Numbered from the stretch's first letter, positions 2,870-24,991 are shown. The stretch: DNA of 30,806 nucleotides from Candidatus Zixiibacteriota bacterium (GCA_030615745.1 JAUWYR010000028.1:1-30806); one strand, 5' to 3'. Made by a program: numbers and translations. Notes: a model not told the origin generated them from the letters alone.

Positions 2870-3010
2870 ATCTTTTTTCTGAAACTAATTTAACAAAAAC
2901 GAAAAATCAAGAGGTTTTATTGAGATTTAAGACATCACCCGGTGTTTTTGTTAAGTATCGGTCTTAAGTTGAGAATGATTAAAGAGTTGGGATAGATTTT
3001 CTAAATTGTT

Positions 3011-3035
3011 GGGGCAGGGGTTGAACCCCTGCCCC
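3011..3035. repeat. Near-perfect GC palindrome
   Basis: Twelve-base arms (GGGGCAGGGGTT and AACCCCTGCCCC) separated by a single G. It lies between the divergent minus-strand trio and the plus-strand cassette. There is no T-run, so a classical terminator is unlikely. It belongs to a set of near-loopless intergenic palindromes in this window. Confidence 0.85.
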
Positions 3036-3145
3036 AGCGTAGAAGAAAAAAAATTCTTTTGGCTTATTTTAGCTGATGTTGCTATTGTATAAATTTCTTT
3101 TTAGTGATAAGGCAGAAGCCTTGTCCCCACATTTTTATTTTGAAA

Positions 3146-3973
3146 ATGATTCTGAAAGATTGTAACGAGCATTTTTTGTTAGTTACATGTTTAATTGGAA
3201 AAAGTATTGATTTTAATAATTTAGTTATTAATTTACATGGCGTGAATTCTAATGGTTGTATAATTAAGGGCAAAAACTTGACCCAAGCTTGGATTAAAGC
3301 ACTGACACACATTATTGAAAACAGAGGGGAATGTCTAAACTTAATGGTGCAGATCGTAAACCCGAAAAGGACTCAATCACTTATTGACAAGAAATATGAT
3401 CGTATTGTAAAAAAATATAGGCTTCTCAACACGAAAAACGTCGCAAATACAATATTTCCGCAGCGTCTGTATGAGATAGTGAACAAGAACAGAGTTAAGT
3501 TATATGAGAAATACAATAATAAGATGTACCCAAAGATTAAAACACGATGGGGAACATATTTTAAGCGAATGATTGATTGGCCCTTTGTTGAGAAGGAAAC
3601 AGAGATAAATCAATTAGAATTCATTATCTCAAGGTTAATAGACCGCAAAAGAATCTATAGACACGCTTACACCATACTTATATGTTCACCCGAACGAAAC
3701 TTTGGACAGCCTGTAGGTGCGCCATGCTTAAATTATTTAACACTACAGATAGACTCAAAAGACAAAAGAATTAGCATGCTTGCGGTATACAGAAATCAGG
3801 ATTTTATACGAAGAGCTTATGGGAATTACATTGGTTTATCCAATTTACAAAGCTTCATTTGTGAACAATCAAAATTTAAAGTTGGGTGTCTGACAATACT
3901 TTCATCGCATGCTTACATAAGTTCATCTCCTAGTCGGAAGGAATTGGAGAAATTTATTAAGGAGATAAAGTGA
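3146..3973 (+). CDS. Divergent thymidylate-synthase-fold protein
   Basis: A 275-residue protein that I read as a distant member of the thymidylate synthase / deoxypyrimidine hydroxymethylase superfamily. GAPCLNYLTLQI (Cys194) matches the catalytic PCH--FQF loop of thymidylate synthase. YRNQDFIRRAY-NYIGLSNL (Arg216, Asp219, Asn233) matches the R-S-x-D...G-P-F-N phosphate and base-binding segment. SSHAYI (His255, Tyr257) matches the D-x-H-x-Y motif. VANTIFPQRLYE near residue 100 is a further conserved-looking block. Catalytic residues are kept but the surroundings differ (Leu after the Cys), so the substrate may not be dUMP. The ATG start is my choice; an in-frame GTG at 3104 would add 14 residues, and neither has a good ribosome site. 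The gene overlaps the radical SAM gene by four bases (GTGA), showing one operon. Confidence 0.7.
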   Translation: MILKDCNEHFLLVTCLIGKSIDFNNLVINLHGVNSNGCIIKGKNLTQAWIKALTHIIENRGECLNLMVQIVNPKRTQSLIDKKYDRIVKKYRLLNTKNVANTIFPQRLYEIVNKNRVKLYEKYNNKMYPKIKTRWGTYFKRMIDWPFVEKETEINQLEFIISRLIDRKRIYRHAYTILICSPERNFGQPVGAPCLNYLTLQIDSKDKRISMLAVYRNQDFIRRAYGNYIGLSNLQSFICEQSKFKVGCLTILSSHAYISSSPSRKELEKFIKEIK

Positions 3974-4995
3974 GCCTCTATGGACCTCCATATCGACTAG
4001 CTGAGTTAAAAGTGGAAGTTACGCAGACTTGCCCCCTCGGTTGTATCCACTGTTCCTCTCTTTCAAATCCCAGTAAATCGCAGCAATTAGAAGAAGAGAA
4101 AGTTAAGGAAATTATATCTGACGCTGTCAAGCTTGGTGCACAGGAAATTGCATTCTCCGGCGGAGAACCGCTCACTTGGCAATCCATTTATGAGGTAGTG
4201 AATCATTGCCTGAAACTCGGAGTAAAATCGACTATTTACACGACAGGAATCAGTTCTACTGATTTGAAGGATGATGCTTCATTTTTCGCAAAGGAATTGA
4301 AGAGATCGGGATTAGGTAGAGCGATTTTCAGCCTTCATGGAGCAAGCTCTGGAACACATGAGATAACAACTCGCGTCGCCGGATCCTTCGATGCCACCAT
4401 AAGATCAATTGAGATATTTAACAAGTTCAAAATTTTCTGTGAGTTGCATTTCGTTCCATTAAAAAATAACTATAAAGAATTGAGGAATCTTGTTGATCTT
4501 GCATCAAATCTTGAAATTAAGAAAATCAGTCTACTTAGGTTTGTGCCACATGGCAGGGCGACTTTATTACATAATATTGAACCGTTATCAAAAGAGGAAA
4601 GCTTTGAACTAAGGAAAGAAATAATTAACATAAAAAAGGTTGACATTAGATTGGGTTCTCCATATAATATATTGGCTTTGGAAGCAGCTGTTTATTGCAA
4701 AGCCGGAATAGACAGGTTAATAATCAATCCATATGGCAATATTTATCCGTGCGATGCATTTAAGAACATACACGTAGAAGATGATTATGTATCTGTGCTG
4801 TATCATCCGTTAAGTGTCATATGGGAGAAGTCCGAATATCTGAATAAAGTAAGGAATTGCTTAAGAAGCGGGTATGCCCAAGTTTGCAAAAGTTGTGATC
4901 AATTAGCACAGTGTAAGTCTGGATGTTTAGCCCAGAAGGTCATAAAAAACGGAACGTTCAAGAAAGATAAAGACCCTGATTGTCTTTTTCAATAG
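3970..4995 (+). CDS. Radical SAM/SPASM enzyme of the TS-like/UDG cassette
   Basis: A 341-residue radical SAM enzyme. Cys21, Cys25 and Cys28 (CPLGCIHC) bind the SAM-cleaving 4Fe-4S cluster, and FSGGEPL (about residue 56) is the SAM-binding GGE motif. The block LLRFVPHGRA near residue 185 is seen in MoaA-, AhbC- and NirJ-like branches. The C-terminus is a SPASM-type domain: INPYGNIYPCDAF, then Cys306, Cys309, Cys315, Cys319 and Cys338, enough for auxiliary clusters. The GTG start overlaps the preceding stop. SPASM enzymes usually modify peptides, but some act on small molecules. Sitting between a thymidylate-synthase-like enzyme and a DNA glycosylase, it could act on a nucleotide or nucleobase; that is inference. 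Confidence 0.85.
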   Translation: MSLYGPPYRLAELKVEVTQTCPLGCIHCSSLSNPSKSQQLEEEKVKEIISDAVKLGAQEIAFSGGEPLTWQSIYEVVNHCLKLGVKSTIYTTGISSTDLKDDASFFAKELKRSGLGRAIFSLHGASSGTHEITTRVAGSFDATIRSIEIFNKFKIFCELHFVPLKNNYKELRNLVDLASNLEIKKISLLRFVPHGRATLLHNIEPLSKEESFELRKEIINIKKVDIRLGSPYNILALEAAVYCKAGIDRLIINPYGNIYPCDAFKNIHVEDDYVSVLYHPLSVIWEKSEYLNKVRNCLRSGYAQVCKSCDQLAQCKSGCLAQKVIKNGTFKKDKDPDCLFQ

Positions 4996-5004
4996 GTGTC
5001 GGTT

Positions 5005-6120
5005 ATGAAAAAAGAGGATAAATTCTCAATATTAATTGATGCGGTCACCCATTGCCGCTTATGCCCTCGGCTGTCTACCCGTTCAAAAATATTGAGCAAG
5101 AATAATGGAAACATCTATTCAAAAGTAATGTTTGTTGCTGAGGCTCCGGGTAGGCGAGGCGCTGATAGAACTGGGATTCCTCTTTGCGGCGATGTTTCGG
5201 GGAATAATTTCCAAAAGCTACTCGATTCCATAGGTTGGGGTAGGGACGATATTTTCATAACCAATGCAGTATTATGTAACCCTCGAGATGACGGTGGAAA
5301 GAATGATACACCTCAAAGACAAGAATTAGCTAATTGCTCATTGTTTCTAAGAATTTTGATTGAGATAGTAGATCCTGAATGCATAGTGACATTAGGTCAA
5401 AGGGCTTTAGACTCGCTGAAAATTATCGCACCACATACAATAAACCTGGGGGAAAATGTGAGGCAAGTTATACCATGGTGTAAAACACGTGTAATTCCGT
5501 TATATCATACCAGTCCTAGAGCTATGATTAGGAGAGGATTTTATCAGCAACTCGAAGATTTTTATTTTCTCAAGAAGGAAATAACAGATAAACATCCGAG
5601 GAAACGAGTTAAACTGCAGGTTCCTTATCAGAAAGCGCTGTTTGAGGATGTTAAGCCTACGAAGTTCCAAAAGCTGGTTGTTTTACTTTTGAAGCAGATA
5701 CATAAAATATCAAAATTTAAGCTAACGAAGCTTATTTATCTTATCGATTATGAAAGTTTGAAATTGCGAAAGAAACTGATAACCAATGCTTTTTATGTAA
5801 AGGGGTTTGATGGGCCTATTCAAACAAATCTCTCACCTGAATTATCTAAACTTGAAGGCAGGGAAATTAAATCCACTTTTTACAGACGCAAACCTTATGT
5901 AGAACTCGGAATCAAGCCCCGGTTCGAACCTGACTTTGAGAATGAAGAGTTAGAAATAATCGCTAAAGTTCTCAAAAAGTATAAAGACAAAAGTGATAAA
6001 GAGCTTAAAACCGTTACATATTTGACTCTGCCAATGAGAAGACTTTTGCGATTAAGGCGAGCCACTAAGAGCACATCTGGGAATTCTCTTTTCAGCTTAG
6101 AAGATTTTAACAAGCAATAA
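5005..6120 (+). CDS. Family 4/5-like uracil-DNA glycosylase fused to a Panacea (DUF4065, SocA-like) domain
   Basis: A 371-residue two-domain protein. Residues 10-195 are a uracil-DNA glycosylase-like domain with the four cluster cysteines of families 4 and 5 in the expected spacing (Cys17, Cys20, Cys111, Cys126). Motif 1 is a hybrid: AEAPG keeps the family 4 acid (Glu46), while GADRTGIPLCGDVSG resembles the family 5 NRTG--F-GD-SG pattern. The second motif reads LYHTSPRAM (His168) instead of the usual HPS/HPA. Residues about 218-352 resemble Panacea: FQKLVVLLLKQI, KLTKLIYLIDYESLKLRKK, then FDGPIQTNLSPEL. The ATG at 5005 has AGG eight bases upstream; an in-frame GTG at 4996 directly follows the previous stop. 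Panacea is known in toxin-antitoxin modules, so the fusion suggests a conflict or control role (inferred). Confidence 0.75.
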   Translation: MKKEDKFSILIDAVTHCRLCPRLSTRSKILSKNNGNIYSKVMFVAEAPGRRGADRTGIPLCGDVSGNNFQKLLDSIGWGRDDIFITNAVLCNPRDDGGKNDTPQRQELANCSLFLRILIEIVDPECIVTLGQRALDSLKIIAPHTINLGENVRQVIPWCKTRVIPLYHTSPRAMIRRGFYQQLEDFYFLKKEITDKHPRKRVKLQVPYQKALFEDVKPTKFQKLVVLLLKQIHKISKFKLTKLIYLIDYESLKLRKKLITNAFYVKGFDGPIQTNLSPELSKLEGREIKSTFYRRKPYVELGIKPRFEPDFENEELEIIAKVLKKYKDKSDKELKTVTYLTLPMRRLLRLRRATKSTSGNSLFSLEDFNKQ

Positions 6121-6125
6121 ATCTT

Positions 6126-6147
6126 GGACAGACCTGAAGGTCTGTCC
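6126..6147. repeat. Near-loopless palindrome
   Basis: Perfect 10-base arms GGACAGACCT and AGGTCTGTCC around a GA dinucleotide, starting five bases after the glycosylase-Panacea stop codon. No T-run follows, so it may stabilise the transcript 3' end or be a dispersed palindromic repeat rather than an intrinsic terminator. Confidence 0.8.
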
Positions 6148-6350
6148 CTACGTCTGAAGTGGCTTTTTCCACTTAAATTTCAAGTTGATTTTAAGAAAAT
6201 TCCTATTAAATTCAAGTTAGCTGAGATTGTGCTATTAGAAAAAGTTGCTTTACTTTTTAAACTTTTAATTGTCGCAGGCGAAAAGAATTAATTAAAATAC
6301 TTGACTTTTGGAAACAGATAGGATAAAATAGAGAAAACATTTAAGAACTT

Positions 6351-6369
6351 TTGCGTATGCATCAAGAGA
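6351..6369 (+). repeat. 19-bp dispersed repeat, copy 3
   Basis: Identical 19 bases in non-coding DNA upstream of the B12-type radical SAM gene. Copies 1 and 3 share further flanking bases (T before, AGG after). A degenerate version (GCGTATGCCTCAATAGA) is at 30724-30740. Confidence 0.85.
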
Positions 6370-6507
6370 CAGGTAATAAGAGACCGGAGGCAACAAAAAT
6401 TTATACCCATGTTTTAAAAAAAGATATAGCCTACATCAGGATTTTTCCGGATAAGATTTTTAGCGAAACTTTTTGTCGCCTTTTAAAAATATGAATAAGG
6501 AGTCTAA

Positions 6508-7989
6508 ATGAGAATACTTCTCGTTTATCCAAAGTATACAGACACCTTCTGGAGTTTTAAGCACGCCTTGAAATTTGTCTTTAAAAAAGCGAGTAGCCCA
6601 GCCCTGGGGTTATTGACTGTGGCTGCGATGCTTCCTGAAGAGTGGGAGAAAAAACTCATCGATATGAATGTAGGGGCTTTGAAGGATAAAGACCTTAAAT
6701 GGGCTGATTTTGTTTTTATCAGCGCTATCTCTATCCAGAAAGAATCTGTAAAGGAAATCATCTCAAGATGCAAAAAAATAGGTGTTAAGATTGTGGCTGG
6801 TGGCCCTCTTTTTACCACCGGATATGAAGAATTTGAGGGTGTAGACCATTTTGTGCTTGATGAGGCTGAAATTACGCTACCGCCATTTTTGGAAGATTTA
6901 AAGAATGGGTGTGCTAAACATATTTACACTTCCGAAAAGTGGGCGGATATAGAAAAGACCCCTACCCCGCTCTGGGAACTTATGAATATGAAAAAATATG
7001 CCACAATGAATATTCAGTATTCACGGGGTTGTCCCTTTAATTGCGAATTCTGTGATATCACCCTACTCTATGGACGAAGACCACGAACAAAGGATAAAGA
7101 CCAGATATTAGCAGAGTTAGAGAGCCTATACTCACGGGGCTGGAGGGGTGGAGTATTTTTTGTTGATGATAACTTTATCGGGAACAGAAGGAAATTAAAA
7201 ACAGAGATTTTGCCTGCTATTGCTGAATGGATGGAAGAGATGCGGCATCCTTTCTCCTTGCAAACGCAAACATCTATAGATCTTTCTGATGATGAAGAAC
7301 TTATGCAATTGATGGTTAAAGCAGGATTTGATACAGTGTTCGTTGGTATCGAAACTCCGAACGAAGAAAGTTTAACCGAATGCACTAAGTTTCAGAACAA
7401 GAATCGTGATTTAATCGCCTGCGTTAAAAAAATCCAGAAGTTTGGTTTAGAGGTGCAGGGAGGATTTATTGTTGGCTTTGACAATGACCCGCTTTCAATT
7501 TTTGAAAGACAGATCAAGTTCATTCAAGAAAGTGGAATCGTTACTGCAATGGTTGGTCTATTAAATGTTCTCCGGGGCACAAGACTTTACCATCGTCTTA
7601 AAAAAGAGAATCGATTGCTAAAAGATGTTTCCGGTGACAATACCGACTGCTCAATTAATTTCATTCCTAAGATGAATAATGAGGTGCTTATAAATGGTTA
7701 TAAAAAGATTCTCTCTACAATTTATTCTCCGGCTTATTATTATGAAAGGGTCAGAAAATTCTTGAAAGAATATAAGCCGTTACAAAAAAGAGCATTCCGA
7801 TTCCATTTTAGCCATTTAGGCACATTTTTTAAATCTACTCTATTTTTAGGTATATTAGGAAAAGAGAGGTTTCATTACTGGAAGCTCCTTTTCTGGTCCT
7901 TGTTCAGGCGTCCACGACTTTTCCCATTGGCAGTAACTTTTGCGATTTACGGTTTCCATTTTCGAAAGATTGTTGAGAAATATGTATGA
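6508..7989 (+). CDS. B12-binding-domain radical SAM protein (DUF4070-like C-terminus)
   Basis: A 493-residue enzyme. Residues 1-135 form a Rossmann-like cobalamin-binding domain (MRILLVYPKY, LGLLTVAAMLP, VKIVAGGPLFT). The ligand position reads DMNVG, without the histidine of DxHxxG, as in many B12-dependent radical SAM enzymes. Cys175, Cys179 and Cys182 (RGCPFNCEFC) bind the SAM cluster. FFVDDNFIGNRR, FVGIETPNEESL and QGGFIVGFDNDP are the usual barrel motifs of this class. The last 150 residues match the layout of DUF4070-type members (the HpnP-like superfamily). Members methylate or rearrange lipids and small molecules; the substrate here cannot be told. AAGGAG lies upstream of the ATG, and the gene stands alone. 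Confidence 0.8.
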   Translation: MRILLVYPKYTDTFWSFKHALKFVFKKASSPALGLLTVAAMLPEEWEKKLIDMNVGALKDKDLKWADFVFISAISIQKESVKEIISRCKKIGVKIVAGGPLFTTGYEEFEGVDHFVLDEAEITLPPFLEDLKNGCAKHIYTSEKWADIEKTPTPLWELMNMKKYATMNIQYSRGCPFNCEFCDITLLYGRRPRTKDKDQILAELESLYSRGWRGGVFFVDDNFIGNRRKLKTEILPAIAEWMEEMRHPFSLQTQTSIDLSDDEELMQLMVKAGFDTVFVGIETPNEESLTECTKFQNKNRDLIACVKKIQKFGLEVQGGFIVGFDNDPLSIFERQIKFIQESGIVTAMVGLLNVLRGTRLYHRLKKENRLLKDVSGDNTDCSINFIPKMNNEVLINGYKKILSTIYSPAYYYERVRKFLKEYKPLQKRAFRFHFSHLGTFFKSTLFLGILGKERFHYWKLLFWSLFRRPRLFPLAVTFAIYGFHFRKIVEKYV

Positions 7990-8085
7990 AAAATTGGAAA
8001 AGAAAAAACTGCGCCTATCGGCGAACTTCTTTTATCCGCAAGACGTTATGTGGAATTGCTTCAACGTATTGCACCAAACACAATG

Positions 8086-8338
8086 TACCAAAAAAGGAGT
8101 TAGCCCAATGAAAATCAAGAAATTCCTGATTCATTTTTTAATCGCTTTTGCTATAACCTTCGTAGTAAATGCAATTGTGGTTTACCTTTGGAATCTTATA
8201 CGGCATGGAGAGGGTGCTTTCAATTGGGAGATAACATTCTTCTTTGCAATAACATTTGGCATTGTCCTGCCATTGTTAGATATTTGGAGAAGCGAGGAGA
8301 AATAGAATCGTTATAACAAGATGCAACTTCAGATAACA
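8086..8338 (+). repeat. Direct repeat copy A (small membrane gene plus tail)
   Basis: About 250 bases that recur with substitutions and small indels at 8962-9211. Both begin with TACCAAAAAAGGAGTT and end with ATAACAAGATGCAACTTCAG followed by ATAACA. The pair flanks the RRM gene. Confidence 0.8.
8108..8305 (+). CDS. Small two-helix membrane protein (intact copy)
   Basis: A 65-residue protein of unknown function. Two hydrophobic segments (FLIHFLIAFAITFVVNAIVVYLW and ITFFFAITFGIVLPLLDIW) flank a short charged loop. The ATG is preceded by AAAGGAG at good spacing, so the longer open frame starting upstream at 7940 is not used. A second copy of gene and flanks, frameshifted, lies at 8984-9178. Confidence 0.65.
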   Translation: MKIKKFLIHFLIAFAITFVVNAIVVYLWNLIRHGEGAFNWEITFFFAITFGIVLPLLDIWRSEEK

Positions 8339-8459
8339 CGAAAACGTTAGACGAAATTCCGGTATGAATGTTTAAAATAAAGGTTCTGTTAAGAAAAAAT
8401 GATAGTAAAAATGGTAAATAAAAATCAAACTAAGCATTTAACAAAAGGAGGAGGTCAGA

Positions 8460-8753
8460 ATGAATATCTACGTAGGCAATTTGTCGCGCGAAATTACCGA
8501 AGAGGATTTGCAACAGGCTTTTGAGGCCTTCGGAAAAGTCGCATCCGCCACTCTTATTAAGGACAAGTTCACTGGCGAACCAAGAGGGTTCGGATTCGTG
8601 GAGATGCCGGCTAAAGCTGAAGCCCAGTCCGCGATCAACGGCCTGAACGGCAAGGAGTTGAAGGGACAAACGCTTAACGTTAATGAGGCTCGCCCTCGCT
8701 CCGAAGACCGTCGAGGTGGAGGGAGACGAGGTGGTGGGCGGCGCTTCCGGTAA
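8460..8753 (+). CDS. RRM-type RNA-binding protein
   Basis: A 97-residue single RNA-recognition-motif protein. RNP2 is IYVGNL (residues 3-8) and RNP1 is RGFGFVEM (about 42-49), with the aromatic residues that stack on RNA in place. The C-terminal tail is Arg/Gly-rich (RRGGGRRGGGRRFR), as in bacterial cold-inducible glycine-rich RNA-binding proteins. A strong ribosome site (AAAGGAGGAGG) precedes the ATG. It probably binds single-stranded RNA in the cytoplasm as a chaperone. Its GC content looks higher than the neighbours', and it sits between two copies of a direct repeat, which hints at a mobile cassette. Confidence 0.92.
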   Translation: MNIYVGNLSREITEEDLQQAFEAFGKVASATLIKDKFTGEPRGFGFVEMPAKAEAQSAINGLNGKELKGQTLNVNEARPRSEDRRGGGRRGGGRRFR

Positions 8754-8790
8754 GCGGCACTCGGACATAATAGAGTCATAGTAGAACTTC

Positions 8791-8865
8791 GCCTACAAAG
8801 TGCTTGTGGTTGACTTTGTTCACCCCAATTTCTTCCGCACTTCGCAAACCCACAAAGGGTCAGGC
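8791..8865 (+). repeat. Imperfect long hairpin after the RRM gene (attC-like)
   Basis: GCCTACAAAG..CTTGTGG on the left can pair imperfectly with CCCACAAAGGGTCAGGC on the right across a 75-base span. It follows the RRM stop codon by about 40 bases. The ends (GCCTAC and GTCAGGC) only loosely resemble integron attC core sites. Confidence 0.35.
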
Positions 8866-8889
8866 TGGGTGAAAACTATGTTTTAAAGT

Positions 8890-8965
8890 GGTAGCCGCCC
8901 ATATGGGCGTAATTCATTGAAAATAAACGCAACATTTTCGTCCCGCTAAAAGCGGGGCGGCTACC
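8890..8965. repeat. Paired hairpin repeat, copy 1
   Basis: Starts GGTAGCCGCCC and ends GGGGCGGCTACC, so the outer arms are inverted repeats. Inside are two smaller palindromes, GCCCATATGGGC and CCCGCTAAAAGCGGG. A second, shorter copy is at 27894-27952. Copy 1 abuts the duplicated small membrane gene. Confidence 0.85.
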
Positions 8966-9211
8966 AAAAAAGGAGTTGGCACAGTGAAAATCAAGAAACT
9001 CCTGATTCATTTTGTAATCGCTTTTTTGCTGTAACCTTCGTAGTTAATGCAATTGTGGTTTATATTTGGAATCTTATACGGTATGGAGAGGGTGCTTTCA
9101 ATTGGGGGATTTCATTCTTCTTTGGCATAGTATGTGGCATTCTTTTCGCCATTGTGTTGGAGGAACGAGGAACAATAGAATCGTCATAACAAGATGCAAC
9201 TTCAGATAACA
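8962..9211 (+). repeat. Direct repeat copy B
   Basis: Second copy of the roughly 250-base unit seen at 8086-8338. It begins inside the last bases of the hairpin repeat (TACC is shared), so the junction of duplication and hairpin coincides. Confidence 0.75.
8984..9178 (+). pseudogene. Frameshifted duplicate of the small membrane protein
   Basis: Homologous to 8108-8305 over its whole length with the ribosome site kept (AAAGGAG), but the start is GTG. Two extra T bases in the run (GCTTTTTTGCT against GCTTTTGCT) shift the frame and bring an early stop. Further substitutions and a small deletion near the 3' end confirm decay. The tag-aligned original stop is at 9176-9178. Confidence 0.75.
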
Positions 9212-9267
9212 AGGGTTTGTGGCTATGCCCAAATGCCTTGGGCACTTTGCAGATACAAAGAATGTTA
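9207..9267 (+). repeat. Imperfect hairpin before the SCP2-cupin gene (attC-like)
   Basis: TAACA pairs with TGTTA at the ends, GTTTGT with ACAAAG inside, and TGCCCAA with TTGGGCA at the tip around ATGCC. It ends in GTTAGCCG, close to the integron core GTTRRRY. Copy A carries a shortened equivalent (GATAAC, then GTTAGACG at 8346-8353) at the same place. Confidence 0.4.
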
Positions 9268-9296
9268 GCCGAAACTGGCGGAAAGGAGTGATAATC

Positions 9297-10091
9297 ATGA
9301 TTTTTTTTAGGCACCTTTTGAAATTAGCTTTAGTATTTGTTGTAATTCAGTTTTGCTTTGTCCAAATAGGTTCCGGACAATCTACAAATCCTGAAACCTC
9401 TGATGTGGGTAACATTCTTAATGTAATGGCGCAAAGTTTCAAAAACAAAATTGAAGAGGACTTCTCAACAGTTGTGCAGTTCGATATTACTGACCGAAAA
9501 GAATCCTGGCACGTGATTGTTGAAAAGGGACGAAAAGTTGTTGTCGGCAAAGGTCCACACGAGGAAGCGCATTTCTTTTTCTTTACTACTACTGACACAC
9601 TGCGTCTTATCTATGAGGGTAAGATGACTGCGGCGACAGCAGCAAGTAAAGCAAAAGGTTCTGATCACGCACCTTTAGACCTAAAATTGGCTGAGAGGTT
9701 GGAATTCACTCCAGAGGTTAGGATTCAGTTTTACACCTTTATCCAGCACTTCTTCAATTCCTCAGTTCCAGAAAAAATTTTGTTGGGAGAGGAATATTCC
9801 CGTGTTGTGCACGGTGGGCATGTTATTGCTCTATATTATTATCCAGGATTTCGTAGCGGTTGGTATTTGTTGAAAAAGGGGGAAAAATTAAATGAGCCGG
9901 GAGATACTAACCCTTTTCCGCAGGCTTTCATTTTTATAGAAGGCGAAGGCTTTGCAAAGATCGGGGACAAAACCATTAAAGTAAAAGCAGGTGAGTCTTA
10001 TTACATTCCACCAAATTCAGATCATGTTGTTTGGACAGAAAGCGAGGTGCCCTTAGTTTTGATTTGGCTTGCCTGGGGAGAGGGGGCTTGA
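9297..10091 (+). CDS. Secreted SCP2-like / cupin fusion protein
   Basis: A 264-residue protein. A signal peptide is seen (FRHLLKLALVFVVIQFCFVQIGSGQS). Residues about 35-140 look like an SCP2 sterol-carrier-type domain: MAQSFKNKIEEDFSTVVQFDI, then W-VIVEKGRKVVVG, TDTLRLIYEGKMTAATA and AERLEF. Residues about 175-262 form a cupin: GHVIALYYYPGF, FIFIEGEGFAKIGDKTIKVKAGESYYIPPNSDHVVW. The C-terminal His of the cupin motif is present, but the first motif lacks the usual H-H pair, so metal binding is doubtful. The ATG at 9297 with GGAAAGGAG upstream is preferred over an ATG at 9219 that would hide the signal peptide. It may bind a lipid or small hydrophobic ligand; the substrate is unknown. Confidence 0.75.
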   Translation: MIFFRHLLKLALVFVVIQFCFVQIGSGQSTNPETSDVGNILNVMAQSFKNKIEEDFSTVVQFDITDRKESWHVIVEKGRKVVVGKGPHEEAHFFFFTTTDTLRLIYEGKMTAATAASKAKGSDHAPLDLKLAERLEFTPEVRIQFYTFIQHFFNSSVPEKILLGEEYSRVVHGGHVIALYYYPGFRSGWYLLKKGEKLNEPGDTNPFPQAFIFIEGEGFAKIGDKTIKVKAGESYYIPPNSDHVVWTESEVPLVLIWLAWGEGA

Positions 10092-12024: not shown

Positions 12025-15000
12025 ATGAGAGTCTCAAGAAGAGGATTTCTGAAGATAACCGGTGCTACTGCTGGTGGAGCGGTTTTGGGGTCTTTCGGAT
12101 TTTTTCCCAAGGAGGCTAAGGCTCAGGCATTTAAGCTGAAAATAAAATATGCTAAAGAAAGCACTACCATCTGTCCCTACTGCGCTGTGGGATGCAGTGA
12201 AATAGTCTCGGTAAGCAATGGAAAAATAATAAATATTGAGGGAGACCCAGACCATCCCATTAATCAAGGGTCTTTGTGCAGTAAAGGTGAGGCTTTGATT
12301 CAGGTTGCTAATAACGAAAGAAGAATGACCAAGGTTCTATACAGAGCTCCCTACAGCGACAAGTGGGAAGAAAAGACCTGGGATTGGGCTCTGCCTGAGA
12401 TCGCTAAGAGGATAAAAAAGACCAGAGACGAAAACTGGATGGAAAAAGACAGGCAGGGTAGAATAGTTAACCGGACAGAGGCTTTGGCTGGTTTGGGCGG
12501 TGCTGCTATTGATAATGAGGAATGCTATCTCTGGGTCAAGTTAGCCCGAGCCTTGGGAATAGTCTATCTGGAACACCAAGCACGCATATGACACTCTGCC
12601 ACAGTCGCCGGTCTGGCGGAAACTTATGGCAGAGGGGCTATGACCAATCACTGGATCGATATCAAGAATGCAGATTGCATTATGATTATCGGATCCAATG
12701 CCGCAGAAAACCACCCCATCTCCTTCAGATGGGTGACCAAGGCTATGGAGAATGGGGCTAAACTGATAAGTGTTGATCCCCGCTTCACCCGCACCTCAGC
12801 CCGAGCGGACCTCTACGTCCCTATTAGATCTGGCTCAGATATCGCATTTATAGGTGCGATAATAAATTATGTGTTACAAAATGACCTTTACAACACAGAG
12901 TATCTTTTGGACCATACCAATGCAAGTTTTCTGGTCAATCCGGATTTCGGCTTCGATGATGGATTGTTCACCGGGTATAATGAGAAGAAGAGAAAATACG
13001 ATAAAAAGAGCTGGCAATACCAGCTGGATGAGAATGGGATTCCCAAGATTGATAAAACCTTGAAGGACCCTAACTGTGTGTTCCAGCTTTTGAAAAAACA
13101 TTTCTCCCGTTATACCTTAGAGAAGGCGTCCCAGATAACAGGAGCTTCACCCGAGAGTATAGTCAAAACAGCTAAAACTTACGGAGCTACCGGAGCAAAA
13201 GACAAATCAGGAACGATAATGTATGCAATGGGCACCACCCAGCATACAGTTGGCACTCAGAATGTCCGTATATATGCTGTTCTTCAGCTTCTTTTAGGGA
13301 ATGTGGGAGTAGCAGGTGGAGGAATCAATGCATTGAGAGGTGAATCGAATGTGCAGGGCTCAACTGACCATGCCCTCTTGTTTCATATCCTTCCCGGGTA
13401 TCTTAAGACTCCCAGGTCTGAAAACCAGACACTGGCTCAGTATTTGGAAGCTTGGACACCAAAATCCAATGACCCCAAGAGTGCTAATTGGTGGCAGCAC
13501 ACTCCCAAATATATGGTAAGCCTTTTGAAGGCATTCTGGGGAGAAAAGGCTCAAAAGAAAAACGAATTCTGCTATCAATACCTTCCCAAAGTCGGAGCTA
13601 ACTACTCCCATATATCGATGTTTGAGGCGATGTATGATGAAGGAATCAAAGGATTGATCTGCATGGGACAGAATCCAGCAGTTGGCGGACCAAACGTTCT
13701 AAAGGAGAGGAAGGCACTTCAGAAATTGGATTGGCTGGTAGCAGTAGACCTGTGGGAGACTGAGACCGCTGGTTTTTGGGCTGATCCGGATGTGGATCCT
13801 AAGAAGATAAAGACAGAAGTCTTTATGTTACCAGCATCCGCCTCCATGGAGAAGGAAGGGAGTATCACTAATAGCGGGCGTTGGATGCAATGGAGATATA
13901 TGGCGGTTCACTCTCCAGGAGAAGCTAAATCTGATCTGTGGATTCTAGATAGACTCTACAAAGAGTTGAAGAAGCTCTATACCAGTGAAGGTGGTGTTTT
14001 CCCTGATCCCATTGTTCATCTTAATTGGGATTATGGTAAAGGTGAGGAGCCGGATGTGCACTTAGTAGCCAAAGAGATAAATGGTTATGACCTTAAAACT
14101 GGTAAGCTGGTTCCCTCATTTGGTAAGCTCAAGGATGATGGGACAACTTCCTCTGGTAATTGGCTTTATTGTGCAAGCTATACTGAGGATGGTAATATGG
14201 CGGCTCGCAGGAACCTCACCGATGCCCCTAATAAAATTGGACTTTATCCCAAATGGTCGTGGTGCTGGCCGGTAAACAGGAGGATCATTTACAACCGGGC
14301 TTCCTGCGATCTTAAAGGTAATCCTTATGCTCCTCACAAATGGGTGATAAAGTGGACAGGTCCTGAGACTAAATGGACTGGGGATGTTCCAGATGGTGGA
14401 TGGGCTCCTGGAGACAGGTATTCCTTCATTATGAAACCTGAAGGACACGGCAGGCTCTTTGGCTTCGGCTTGGCTGATGGACCGTTTCCTGAGCACTATG
14501 AGCCCCTGGAAAGCCCGGTGAAAAACTTGATGTCTTCTGCGCAGACCAATCCGACCATTGTGATCTGGACCAAGGAGATGGATGAAATCGGGACAGTGAA
14601 GCATTTTCCCATTATCGGTACTACCTATAGAGTTACCGAGCACTGGCAGGCAGGTCAGATGACCAGAAACAATCCCTGGTTAGTTGAGCTGATGCCGGAT
14701 ATGTTTGTGGAGATGAGCAAGTCTTTGGCTAAAGCTAAGAATATAAAGAACGGTGATAGGGTAAGGATTTCAACTGCTCGCGGTGAGATAACCGCCTATG
14801 CTGTGGTAACTGACCGTTTCAAGCCCTTCAAGTTGAATGGAAAAGCTTACGAACAAATTGGGTTGCCCTGGCATTATGGGTACAAAGGTTTGGCTAAAGG
14901 TTGTAGTGCCAACTGTCTGACCCCTCATGTGGGAGATGCCAACACCATGATACCCGAATATAAAGCGTTTTTATGTGACCTGAAAAAGGAGGTTGGTTAA
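12025..15000 (+). CDS. fdhA: Selenocysteine-containing formate dehydrogenase catalytic subunit
   Basis: A 991-residue molybdopterin enzyme that oxidises formate to CO2 in the periplasm. It starts with a twin-arginine signal (SRRGFLK). Cys50, Cys53, Cys57 and Cys85 bind a 4Fe-4S cluster. The in-frame UGA at 12589-12591 (residue 189) is not a true stop: it sits in HQARI-U-HSATVAGLAETYGRGAMTNHW, exactly where FdnG-type enzymes carry selenocysteine followed by His, and the reading frame continues to 15000. A SECIS hairpin follows directly. Later blocks (NVQGSTDH, GQNPAVGGPN, and RNNPWLVELMPDMFVEM near the C-terminus) fit the bis-PGD-binding fold. Gene callers would split it at 12591. The host must have selA, selB, selC and selD elsewhere. 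Ribosome site AAGGAGGTG. Confidence 0.95.
12592..12636 (+). promoter_or_regulatory. Bacterial SECIS element
   Basis: The outer stem CTCTGCCA (12594-12601) pairs perfectly with TGGCAGAG (12627-12634). The apical stem CGCC/GGCG closes a GGTCT loop (12610-12614). The loop starts 18 bases after the UGA, the same spacing and loop sequence as in E. coli fdhF, where SelB binds. Confidence 0.9.
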
Positions 15001-23926: not shown

Positions 23927-24991
23927 ATGAGGAAAACAACTTTCAGGCATAGGCTTTTACGCTATAGCATAATCGAGAGATTTTTTCGGGACCCTGTTAC
24001 TCATAAACCAAGACCCCATACCCTGAAAAGGATTTTTAACATTATCCTGGTTTTCCTTTCGAGAAAGCTTAAACTCTCTTTTGTGTTCGGTTATCCTTAC
24101 AATCTTATAATCGAACCCACAAATGTCTGCACCCTGAATTGCCCTATGTGTCCTTCTGGAAACTCTATGATGAAAAGGAAAAGGGGTATGATGAAATTTA
24201 ATGACTTCAAAAAAATAATAGATGAGATGGGAGGCTATCTATATCAGATCGGACTTATGAATTATGGGGAATCACTTTTGAATCCAGAGCTTTACCGTAT
24301 GATAAAATATGCTAAAACAAAGAATATAACTTGTGTTTTAAGCACCAATGCTTTGTTTTTGAATGAAGATTGCTCTTTGAAGCTTTTAAGGTCAGGTCTT
24401 GATTTCCTTTCGGTATCTTTAGATGGTGCATCACAGGAAACTTATGTAAAATACAGGGTCAAAGGCGACTTCCAAAAAGTTCTGGAGAATATCGGTTATC
24501 TGGTCAAAAAAAGGAATCAGCTAAAATCTTCTCTTTTCATAGATATTGGATTTTTAGTCACAAGGTTTAATGAGAATGAGATCGAGAAGGCGAAAAATTT
24601 AACAGCTAAATTAGGTGTTGATAATTTCTCTTTGGTTAAATTTGCTTTTCCTGATTACAGGAGTATCAAAAAAGAAGTTTTTTTTAATTTTCTTCCTGAA
24701 AATTCGAGTTATTCAAGATATAAGATAGTTAATGGGAAATTGGAGTTAAAAGAAAAACCAGAGAAAAAAACTCCCTGCATCTGGGCTTGGGACCGTGCGG
24801 TTATAAACTGGGATGGGTCTTTGTGTCCCTGTTGTGTGGATTATGATTGCAAGTATAATCTCGGGAATTATTTTGATCAGGGCTTGAAAAAAATTTGGAA
24901 CAGCGAAAAATATAAAAGTCTCAGAAAAAAGATTCTGAAGGATAAAGATAAAATAGAGATATGTTATAATTGCTCTGCTTCGATGGAGTGA
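23927..24991 (+). CDS. Radical SAM/SPASM protein
   Basis: A 354-residue enzyme. Cys68, Cys72 and Cys75 (CTLNCPMC) bind the SAM cluster. NYGESLLNPEL is the GGE-equivalent motif, and SVSLDGASQETYVKYR is a conserved strand of the barrel. The C-terminus is SPASM-like: CIWAWDRAVINWDGSLCPCCVDYD, then LGNYFDQGLKKIWNSEKYKSLRKK and CYNC. The N-terminal 55 residues are basic and hydrophobic. Relatives act on peptides or on cell-envelope sugars and lipids; nothing nearby fixes the substrate. It stands alone. Confidence 0.83.
   Translation: MRKTTFRHRLLRYSIIERFFRDPVTHKPRPHTLKRIFNIILVFLSRKLKLSFVFGYPYNLIIEPTNVCTLNCPMCPSGNSMMKRKRGMMKFNDFKKIIDEMGGYLYQIGLMNYGESLLNPELYRMIKYAKTKNITCVLSTNALFLNEDCSLKLLRSGLDFLSVSLDGASQETYVKYRVKGDFQKVLENIGYLVKKRNQLKSSLFIDIGFLVTRFNENEIEKAKNLTAKLGVDNFSLVKFAFPDYRSIKKEVFFNFLPENSSYSRYKIVNGKLELKEKPEKKTPCIWAWDRAVINWDGSLCPCCVDYDCKYNLGNYFDQGLKKIWNSEKYKSLRKKILKDKDKIEICYNCSASME

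Follow-up and report, generated by a model that had tools for sequence, protein, structure and literature searches.

A candidate pyrimidine-modifying and pyrimidine-policing operon of Candidatus Zixiibacteriota that combines a thymidylate synthase-like protein, a radical SAM/SPASM enzyme and a UDG-Panacea fusion

The analysed stretch of the Candidatus Zixiibacteriota genome (GCA_030615745.1, JAUWYR010000028.1:1-30806; 30,806 nt, hereafter the window) carries an operon of three coupled plus-strand genes that encode a thymidylate synthase (TS)-like protein, a radical SAM/SPASM enzyme and a UDG-type DNA glycosylase fused to a Panacea domain. The TS-like family, which is represented in at least six bacterial phyla and in a haloarchaeon, is consistently paired with either UDG or a gene denoted HMUDK_hel. 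We favor, with moderate confidence, the interpretation that the operon makes and polices a modified pyrimidine and is a rare radical SAM-containing variant of the gene set that consists of TS-like, UDG or HMUDK_hel, and MazG_C, with a likely role in conflicts with phages or plasmids.

Organization and genomic setting of the operon

The three ORFs (3104/3146-3973, 3970-4995 and 4996-6120) leave no space between them. The stop codon of gene 1 and the start codon of gene 2 overlap in a GTGA at 3970, and a Shine-Dalgarno-like purine-rich stretch just 5' of this start (AAGGAGAT region, 3961-3968, plus strand) looks like a good ribosome-binding site; gene 2 ends at 4995 and is directly abutted by the start of gene 3 (GTG at 4996 or ATG at 5005). 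The original prediction, made from this DNA alone, had described a three-gene cassette at 3146-6120 with the GTGA at 3970 and a stop followed by a start at 4993-5005, and both the ORFs and the domains of their products bear this out. The start of gene 1 is uncertain, with GTG at 3104, ATG at 3146 and GTG at 3242 as the candidates; homology begins only at about residue 40 (approximately nt 3260), and residues 1-19 are modeled with pLDDT below 50 (residue numbers of this protein count from the start at 3146).

Upstream of the operon, an imperfect terminator-like inverted repeat (2997-3049) likely marks the boundary with divergently oriented TPR genes. On the other side, a gap of nearly 390 bases separates the end of gene 3 from the next gene, at 6508, which encodes a B12-binding radical SAM/DUF4070 protein and is not obviously a member of the operon. 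A search of the flanks for direct repeats of the kind that delimit mobile elements gave no convincing candidates. The neighborhood, where the TPR genes are accompanied by metabolic genes such as those of a formate dehydrogenase operon, is not a defense island. The two other radical SAM genes of the window, the above B12-binding/DUF4070 gene (6508-7989) and a radical SAM/SPASM gene at 23927-24991, appear to be unrelated to the operon. The formate dehydrogenase-like catalytic subunit encoded at 12025-15000 contains one in-frame TGA, at codon 189, which, when read as selenocysteine, yields a single 991-residue protein that is likely an ordinary selenoprotein; genes for FdhD, FdhE, MobA and MobB are located nearby.

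Within the phylum, the TS-like gene is patchily distributed, being present in 1 of 132 genomes and not found in the sampled congener; no close homologs were detected in the 131 other genomes of the phylum, in phages or in IMG/VR contigs. This patchy presence, together with a separate, ordinary-looking UDG encoded elsewhere in the same genome (C59), led us to reject a housekeeping role for the cassette.

Domains, folds and active sites of the TS-like protein and the UDG-Panacea fusion

By sequence, profile and structural model, the product of gene 1 (3146-3973, plus strand) resembles dUMP/dCMP-modifying enzymes of the TS fold, with scores below the cut-offs of the established families. The Pfam TS profile gives 16.7 bits (E = 0.004, cut-off 24.3) and the NCBIfam model of methanogen TS, TIGR03283, gives 61.5 bits (E = 7e-17, cut-off 174.6), so that by sequence the protein falls outside canonical ThyA/TYMS. 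An AlphaFold2 model built on 25 sequences (pLDDT 85, pTM 0.85) nevertheless confirms the fold of the TS superfamily. The leading structural matches are the dCMP hydroxylase AfhB of phage HY126 (Z = 18.3) and the CMP hydroxymethylase MilA (Z = 17.8), with thymidylate synthases at Z = 15.9 and lower, and the three quoted matches span 188-201 residues. The original prediction had designated this protein a TS-fold enzyme, to be compared structurally with TS and dCMP hydroxymethylase, and the comparison returned the TS fold rather than an unrelated one.

In the TS of L. casei, Cys198 is the nucleophile and Asn229 contacts the base. In the family profile alignment, Cys198, Arg218 and Asn229 of that enzyme correspond to Cys194, Arg216 (the equivalent of the substrate-binding arginine) and Asn227 of the TS-like protein. 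Both Cys194 and Asn227 are invariant among the 50 non-redundant sequences of the family, and Arg216 is retained in 38; the aspartate of the RxxD motif is present in just six, among them all three that adjoin UDG-Panacea genes. The positions aligned with the C-terminal His-x-Tyr motif, which contacts the sugar, are not conserved in the family, in a part of the alignment that is itself uncertain. Given the established chemistry of TS, the presence of asparagine rather than aspartate at position 227 suggests a uracil-type rather than a cytosine substrate.

Gene 3 (4996-6120, plus strand) encodes a fusion of a UDG domain (residues ~4-200; E = 4.2e-25) and a SocA/Panacea domain (residues 243-342; E = 3.7e-10, 41.2 bits against a cut-off of 25.7), both above the Pfam cut-offs. 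The UDG domain adopts the family 4 fold (Z = 25.8 to 4zbx) and retains the four cysteines of the Fe-S cluster (20, 23, 94 and 114), the catalytic Glu49 in a GEAPG-type motif, and His171, and it scores below the cut-offs of both type 4 models (NF040953, 89.4 against 250; TIGR00758, 81.9 against 125.3). Judging from the sequence, it is a divergent family 4 subfamily with a complete predicted active site. The Panacea domain was assigned by sequence, the structural model being not confident in this region. Fusions that are 36-38% identical to that in the window over the whole length are encoded next to TS-like genes in a Bacteroidota genome (L117) and in Paucimonas lemoignei (L078), so that the Panacea domain exceeds the Pfam cut-off in three TS-adjacent proteins. 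In plasmids, matches were limited to the UDG domain, and among 220 genomes of the order that includes Paucimonas, the full-length fusion was found in Paucimonas alone. PADLOC contains no model that matches either the TS-like protein or the fusion.

The closest other relative of the UDG domain (46% identity) is a stand-alone UDG of the viral contig IMGVR_UViG_3300047160_013439 (L126), which is a candidate modified-DNA phage. The segment of this contig between 4274 and 8669 encodes a TS-family enzyme, MazG/PRA-PH, a thymidylate kinase-like protein, a dCMP deaminase, the UDG and a C5-methyltransferase. The TS-family enzyme of this contig has aspartate in the position of the TS asparagine.

Recurrence of the TS-like family with UDG or HMUDK_hel

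Species genomes yielded 114 loci of the TS-like family, of which 80 were kept; the family was also identified on 24 plasmids, 15 of them called conjugative, and sporadically among Bacteroidota, Planctomycetota, Pseudomonadota and Acidobacteriota genomes. After clustering at 80%, these loci form 49 clusters besides the window. The usual cassette has the order ACP-HTH-ImmA/IrrE-(C1 peptidase)-TS-(UDG or HMUDK_hel)-MazG_C, with HTH and ImmA located near the TS-like gene in 46 clusters, MazG_C in 43, ACP in 40 and the papain-like C1 peptidase in 28. Genes for acpS are often present as well (L002-L014, L027-L106 and others), and conjugative plasmids are frequent among the carriers.

Exactly one of UDG (28 clusters) and HMUDK_hel (21 clusters) is encoded within 4.5 kb of the TS-like gene in all 49 clusters, with no cluster containing both or neither, and the window, with its UDG, follows the same rule. 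If the two genes were distributed independently with the same totals, the probability of such perfect exclusion would be about 2.6e-14, a value that is too small because there are related loci among the clusters. In a control set of 71 UDG-anchored viral loci searched with the same seeds, MazG was found four times and HMUDK_hel never. Within the UDG-bearing part of the TS tree, HMUDK_hel appears at single tips (L054, L007 and L041), as expected if the two genes swap for one another; the TS-like protein of the window, on a long branch, groups with the mainly UDG-bearing part. The GPGA motif of HMUDK_hel had led us to suspect a glycosylase fold, but comparison with solved structures yielded only chance matches to aquaporins and gave this assignment no support. 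Co-occurrence of homologs, on which the original prediction staked its three-gene cassette, accordingly holds across phyla for the TS-like gene and UDG.

The loci closest to the window in arrangement are those of L117 and L078, both MazG_C-TS-UDG-Panacea. These are the only complete loci that lack the HTH-ImmA block (a third locus without it, L041, is cut by a contig end), and Panacea therefore seems to replace this block, as judged from three loci including the window. With the other cassettes the window shares the TS-like family (25-35% identity), the adjacent UDG or HMUDK_hel and, in the two above loci, the fusion; it differs from them in that TS and UDG are separated by a radical SAM gene, an addition that is unique to the window among the TS plus UDG-Panacea loci, and in the lack of adjacent MazG_C, ACP, HTH, ImmA and C1 peptidase genes, the scan of ORFs in the window having returned no MazG_C.

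Experiments have established Panacea, which has dozens of partners, as a neutralizing domain (PMC8832971), and its presence in three TS-adjacent proteins could be taken to mean that the operon is a toxin-antitoxin-like unit, in which the toxic component, either the glycosylase or the TS-like and radical SAM proteins together, is neutralized by direct Panacea binding as in PanAT. We consider this unlikely: only HTH and PAD1, and not a glycosylase, have been reported as widely conserved N-terminal extensions of Panacea (PMC8832971), whereas here the domain is fused to a DNA glycosylase with intact active-site residues, the operon consists of three genes rather than being a two-gene pair, and most of the TS-like relatives have no Panacea at all.

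MazG-type pyrophosphatases, which clear unwanted NTPs, abound among the extra partners of the TS-like family, and a viral contig with genes for base-modifying enzymes also carries a related UDG. These observations would also fit sanitation without any modification: modified nucleotides made by phages would be altered or degraded by the TS-like and radical SAM proteins, and UDG-Panacea would clear the respective bases from DNA. This is the least probable of the readings weighed here. A general sanitation system would have to be far more common than this cassette, and, to our knowledge, TS-fold enzymes install C5 groups rather than remove them.

The radical SAM enzyme, comparison with known systems and predicted function

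Gene 2 (3970-4995, plus strand) encodes a protein with radical SAM (E = 4.7e-18) and SPASM (E = 7e-5) domains, both above the Pfam cut-offs, a CX3CX2C motif at Cys21/25/28 and eight C-terminal cysteines (243, 261, 297, 306, 309, 315, 319 and 338). No named equivalog was found, all NCBIfam scores (PqqE, NirJ, AhbD, MoaA and others) being far below the cut-offs; among solved structures, the best profile match is to PqqE, followed by the cytosylglucuronate decarboxylase BlsE, both distant. PADLOC matches to viperin were generic, and this assignment was rejected. The only close plasmid relative is encoded in Parabacteroides distasonis (L008, NZ_OY725812.1; 31-34% identity, nearly full length, with 31% over 94%), in an operon (5360-9515) with the order Nmad2-HMUDK_hel-radical SAM-HD-like that adjoins a TIR gene with a strong match to ThsB of Thoeris; the HD-like label is our reading of the sequence, outside any Pfam match. 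Like the window, this operon combines a radical SAM/SPASM gene with a nucleotide modification context; unlike the window, it lacks a TS-like gene and has HMUDK_hel in place of UDG. A match to gene 2 in a viral contig is not independent of this locus because the order of the genes is identical and the scores are nearly so. No relatives were detected at 1e-25 in 296 Bacteroidota genomes, a set that includes no positive control genome. Apart from a weak 18-bit match near one further locus (L250), the radical SAM gene accompanies a TS-like gene in this window only, which comes close to the refuting outcome named in the original prediction, namely, that the homologs would hardly ever occur together. 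Gene 2 is thus the weakest link of the proposal, and the trio is a single case: its position in the operon speaks for membership in the cassette, but it does not recur with TS-like genes and is linked to nucleotide modification through one other locus.

The similarity to MilA, the enzyme of mildiomycin synthesis, and to BlsE, a radical SAM enzyme with a nucleoside substrate, as well as the ACP and acpS genes located beside many TS-like relatives, could point to a small-molecule pathway in which CMP or UMP is modified by the TS-fold and radical SAM enzymes toward a nucleoside antibiotic or cofactor, with UDG guarding the DNA of the producer. This appears quite unlikely given that no biosynthetic cluster, and specifically no transporter, glycosyltransferase or aminoacyltransferase, is recognizable beside the operon, that the invariant Asn227 fits uracil rather than cytosine, and that the constant partner of the family is a DNA glycosylase or HMUDK_hel.

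Phage pathways of pyrimidine hypermodification (TS-family hydroxymethylase, kinase and tailoring enzymes) resemble the window in the TS-fold first step, in the placement of a phage dCMP hydroxylase among the best fold matches, and in the viral contig that combines a TS-family enzyme with the related UDG. They differ in that the operon, which is not in a phage, includes no DNA kinase or transferases, and the TS-like family was not found in the phage and viral collections searched.

Our literature search found no description of the trio of TS-like, radical SAM and UDG-Panacea genes, and to that extent the claim of the original prediction that no system of this composition has been described stands. 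It does not extend to related systems: DefensePredictor validated E. coli anti-phage systems with TS (comparable to the TS-like family by domain name alone), dNMP kinase, 5-hmdU kinase and NMAD domains, and its further predictions include defense systems with UDG, MazG, MazG-C and aGPT-Pplase (PMC13092281); nucleotide-centric conflict systems had been predicted earlier (Burroughs et al., 2015, as cited in PMC13092281). The proposed module for an unusual pyrimidine or for defense likewise gains support for the TS and glycosylase pair, through its co-occurrence across phyla, its MazG_C, HMUDK_hel and Nmad-type neighbors, its presence on conjugative plasmids, and the Lamassu-, Thoeris- and PD-T4-6-like genes in the vicinity of relatives (the Lamassu LmuB-like and PD-T4-6-like genes beside relatives of the cassette, and the ThsB-like gene beside the radical SAM relative, in a small hand-picked sample with no baseline); the radical SAM enzyme has one other locus to offer.

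Under the interpretation that we favor, namely, production and policing of a modified pyrimidine, Cys194 of the TS-fold enzyme would attack C6 of a uracil-type (deoxy)nucleotide, and a one-carbon or hydroxyl group would be placed on C5. The radical SAM/SPASM enzyme may then elaborate this group, as suggested by its position in the operon and by its relative in the Nmad2-HMUDK_hel context. UDG-Panacea would remove from DNA either this modified base or the corresponding unmodified one, with Panacea possibly providing control through protein binding instead of the HTH-ImmA block, and the resulting abasic damage would hit DNA containing the wrong pyrimidine, hence the putative role in conflicts with phages and plasmids. 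The single occurrence of the trio, the lack of other TS-like loci with the radical SAM gene, the absence of adjacent MazG_C, ACP, HTH and ImmA genes, and the metabolic neighborhood argue against this interpretation. More speculatively, and with a low probability in our estimate, the operon could be an immune system in which the TS-fold and radical SAM enzymes make an undescribed base and the glycosylase, restrained by Panacea and freed upon infection, strips the mismatched pyrimidine, a form of restriction by base excision with no endonuclease.

An orphan TS-like family that resides on many conjugative plasmids is now tied to one recurrent set of partners. Because UDG and HMUDK_hel swap for one another, they are predicted to perform equivalent jobs, which makes the function of HMUDK_hel amenable to testing. 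In the UDG-Panacea fusion, a glycosylase of the repair type and an antitoxin domain are united in one protein, and the variant with the radical SAM gene offers a candidate path toward a novel DNA base.
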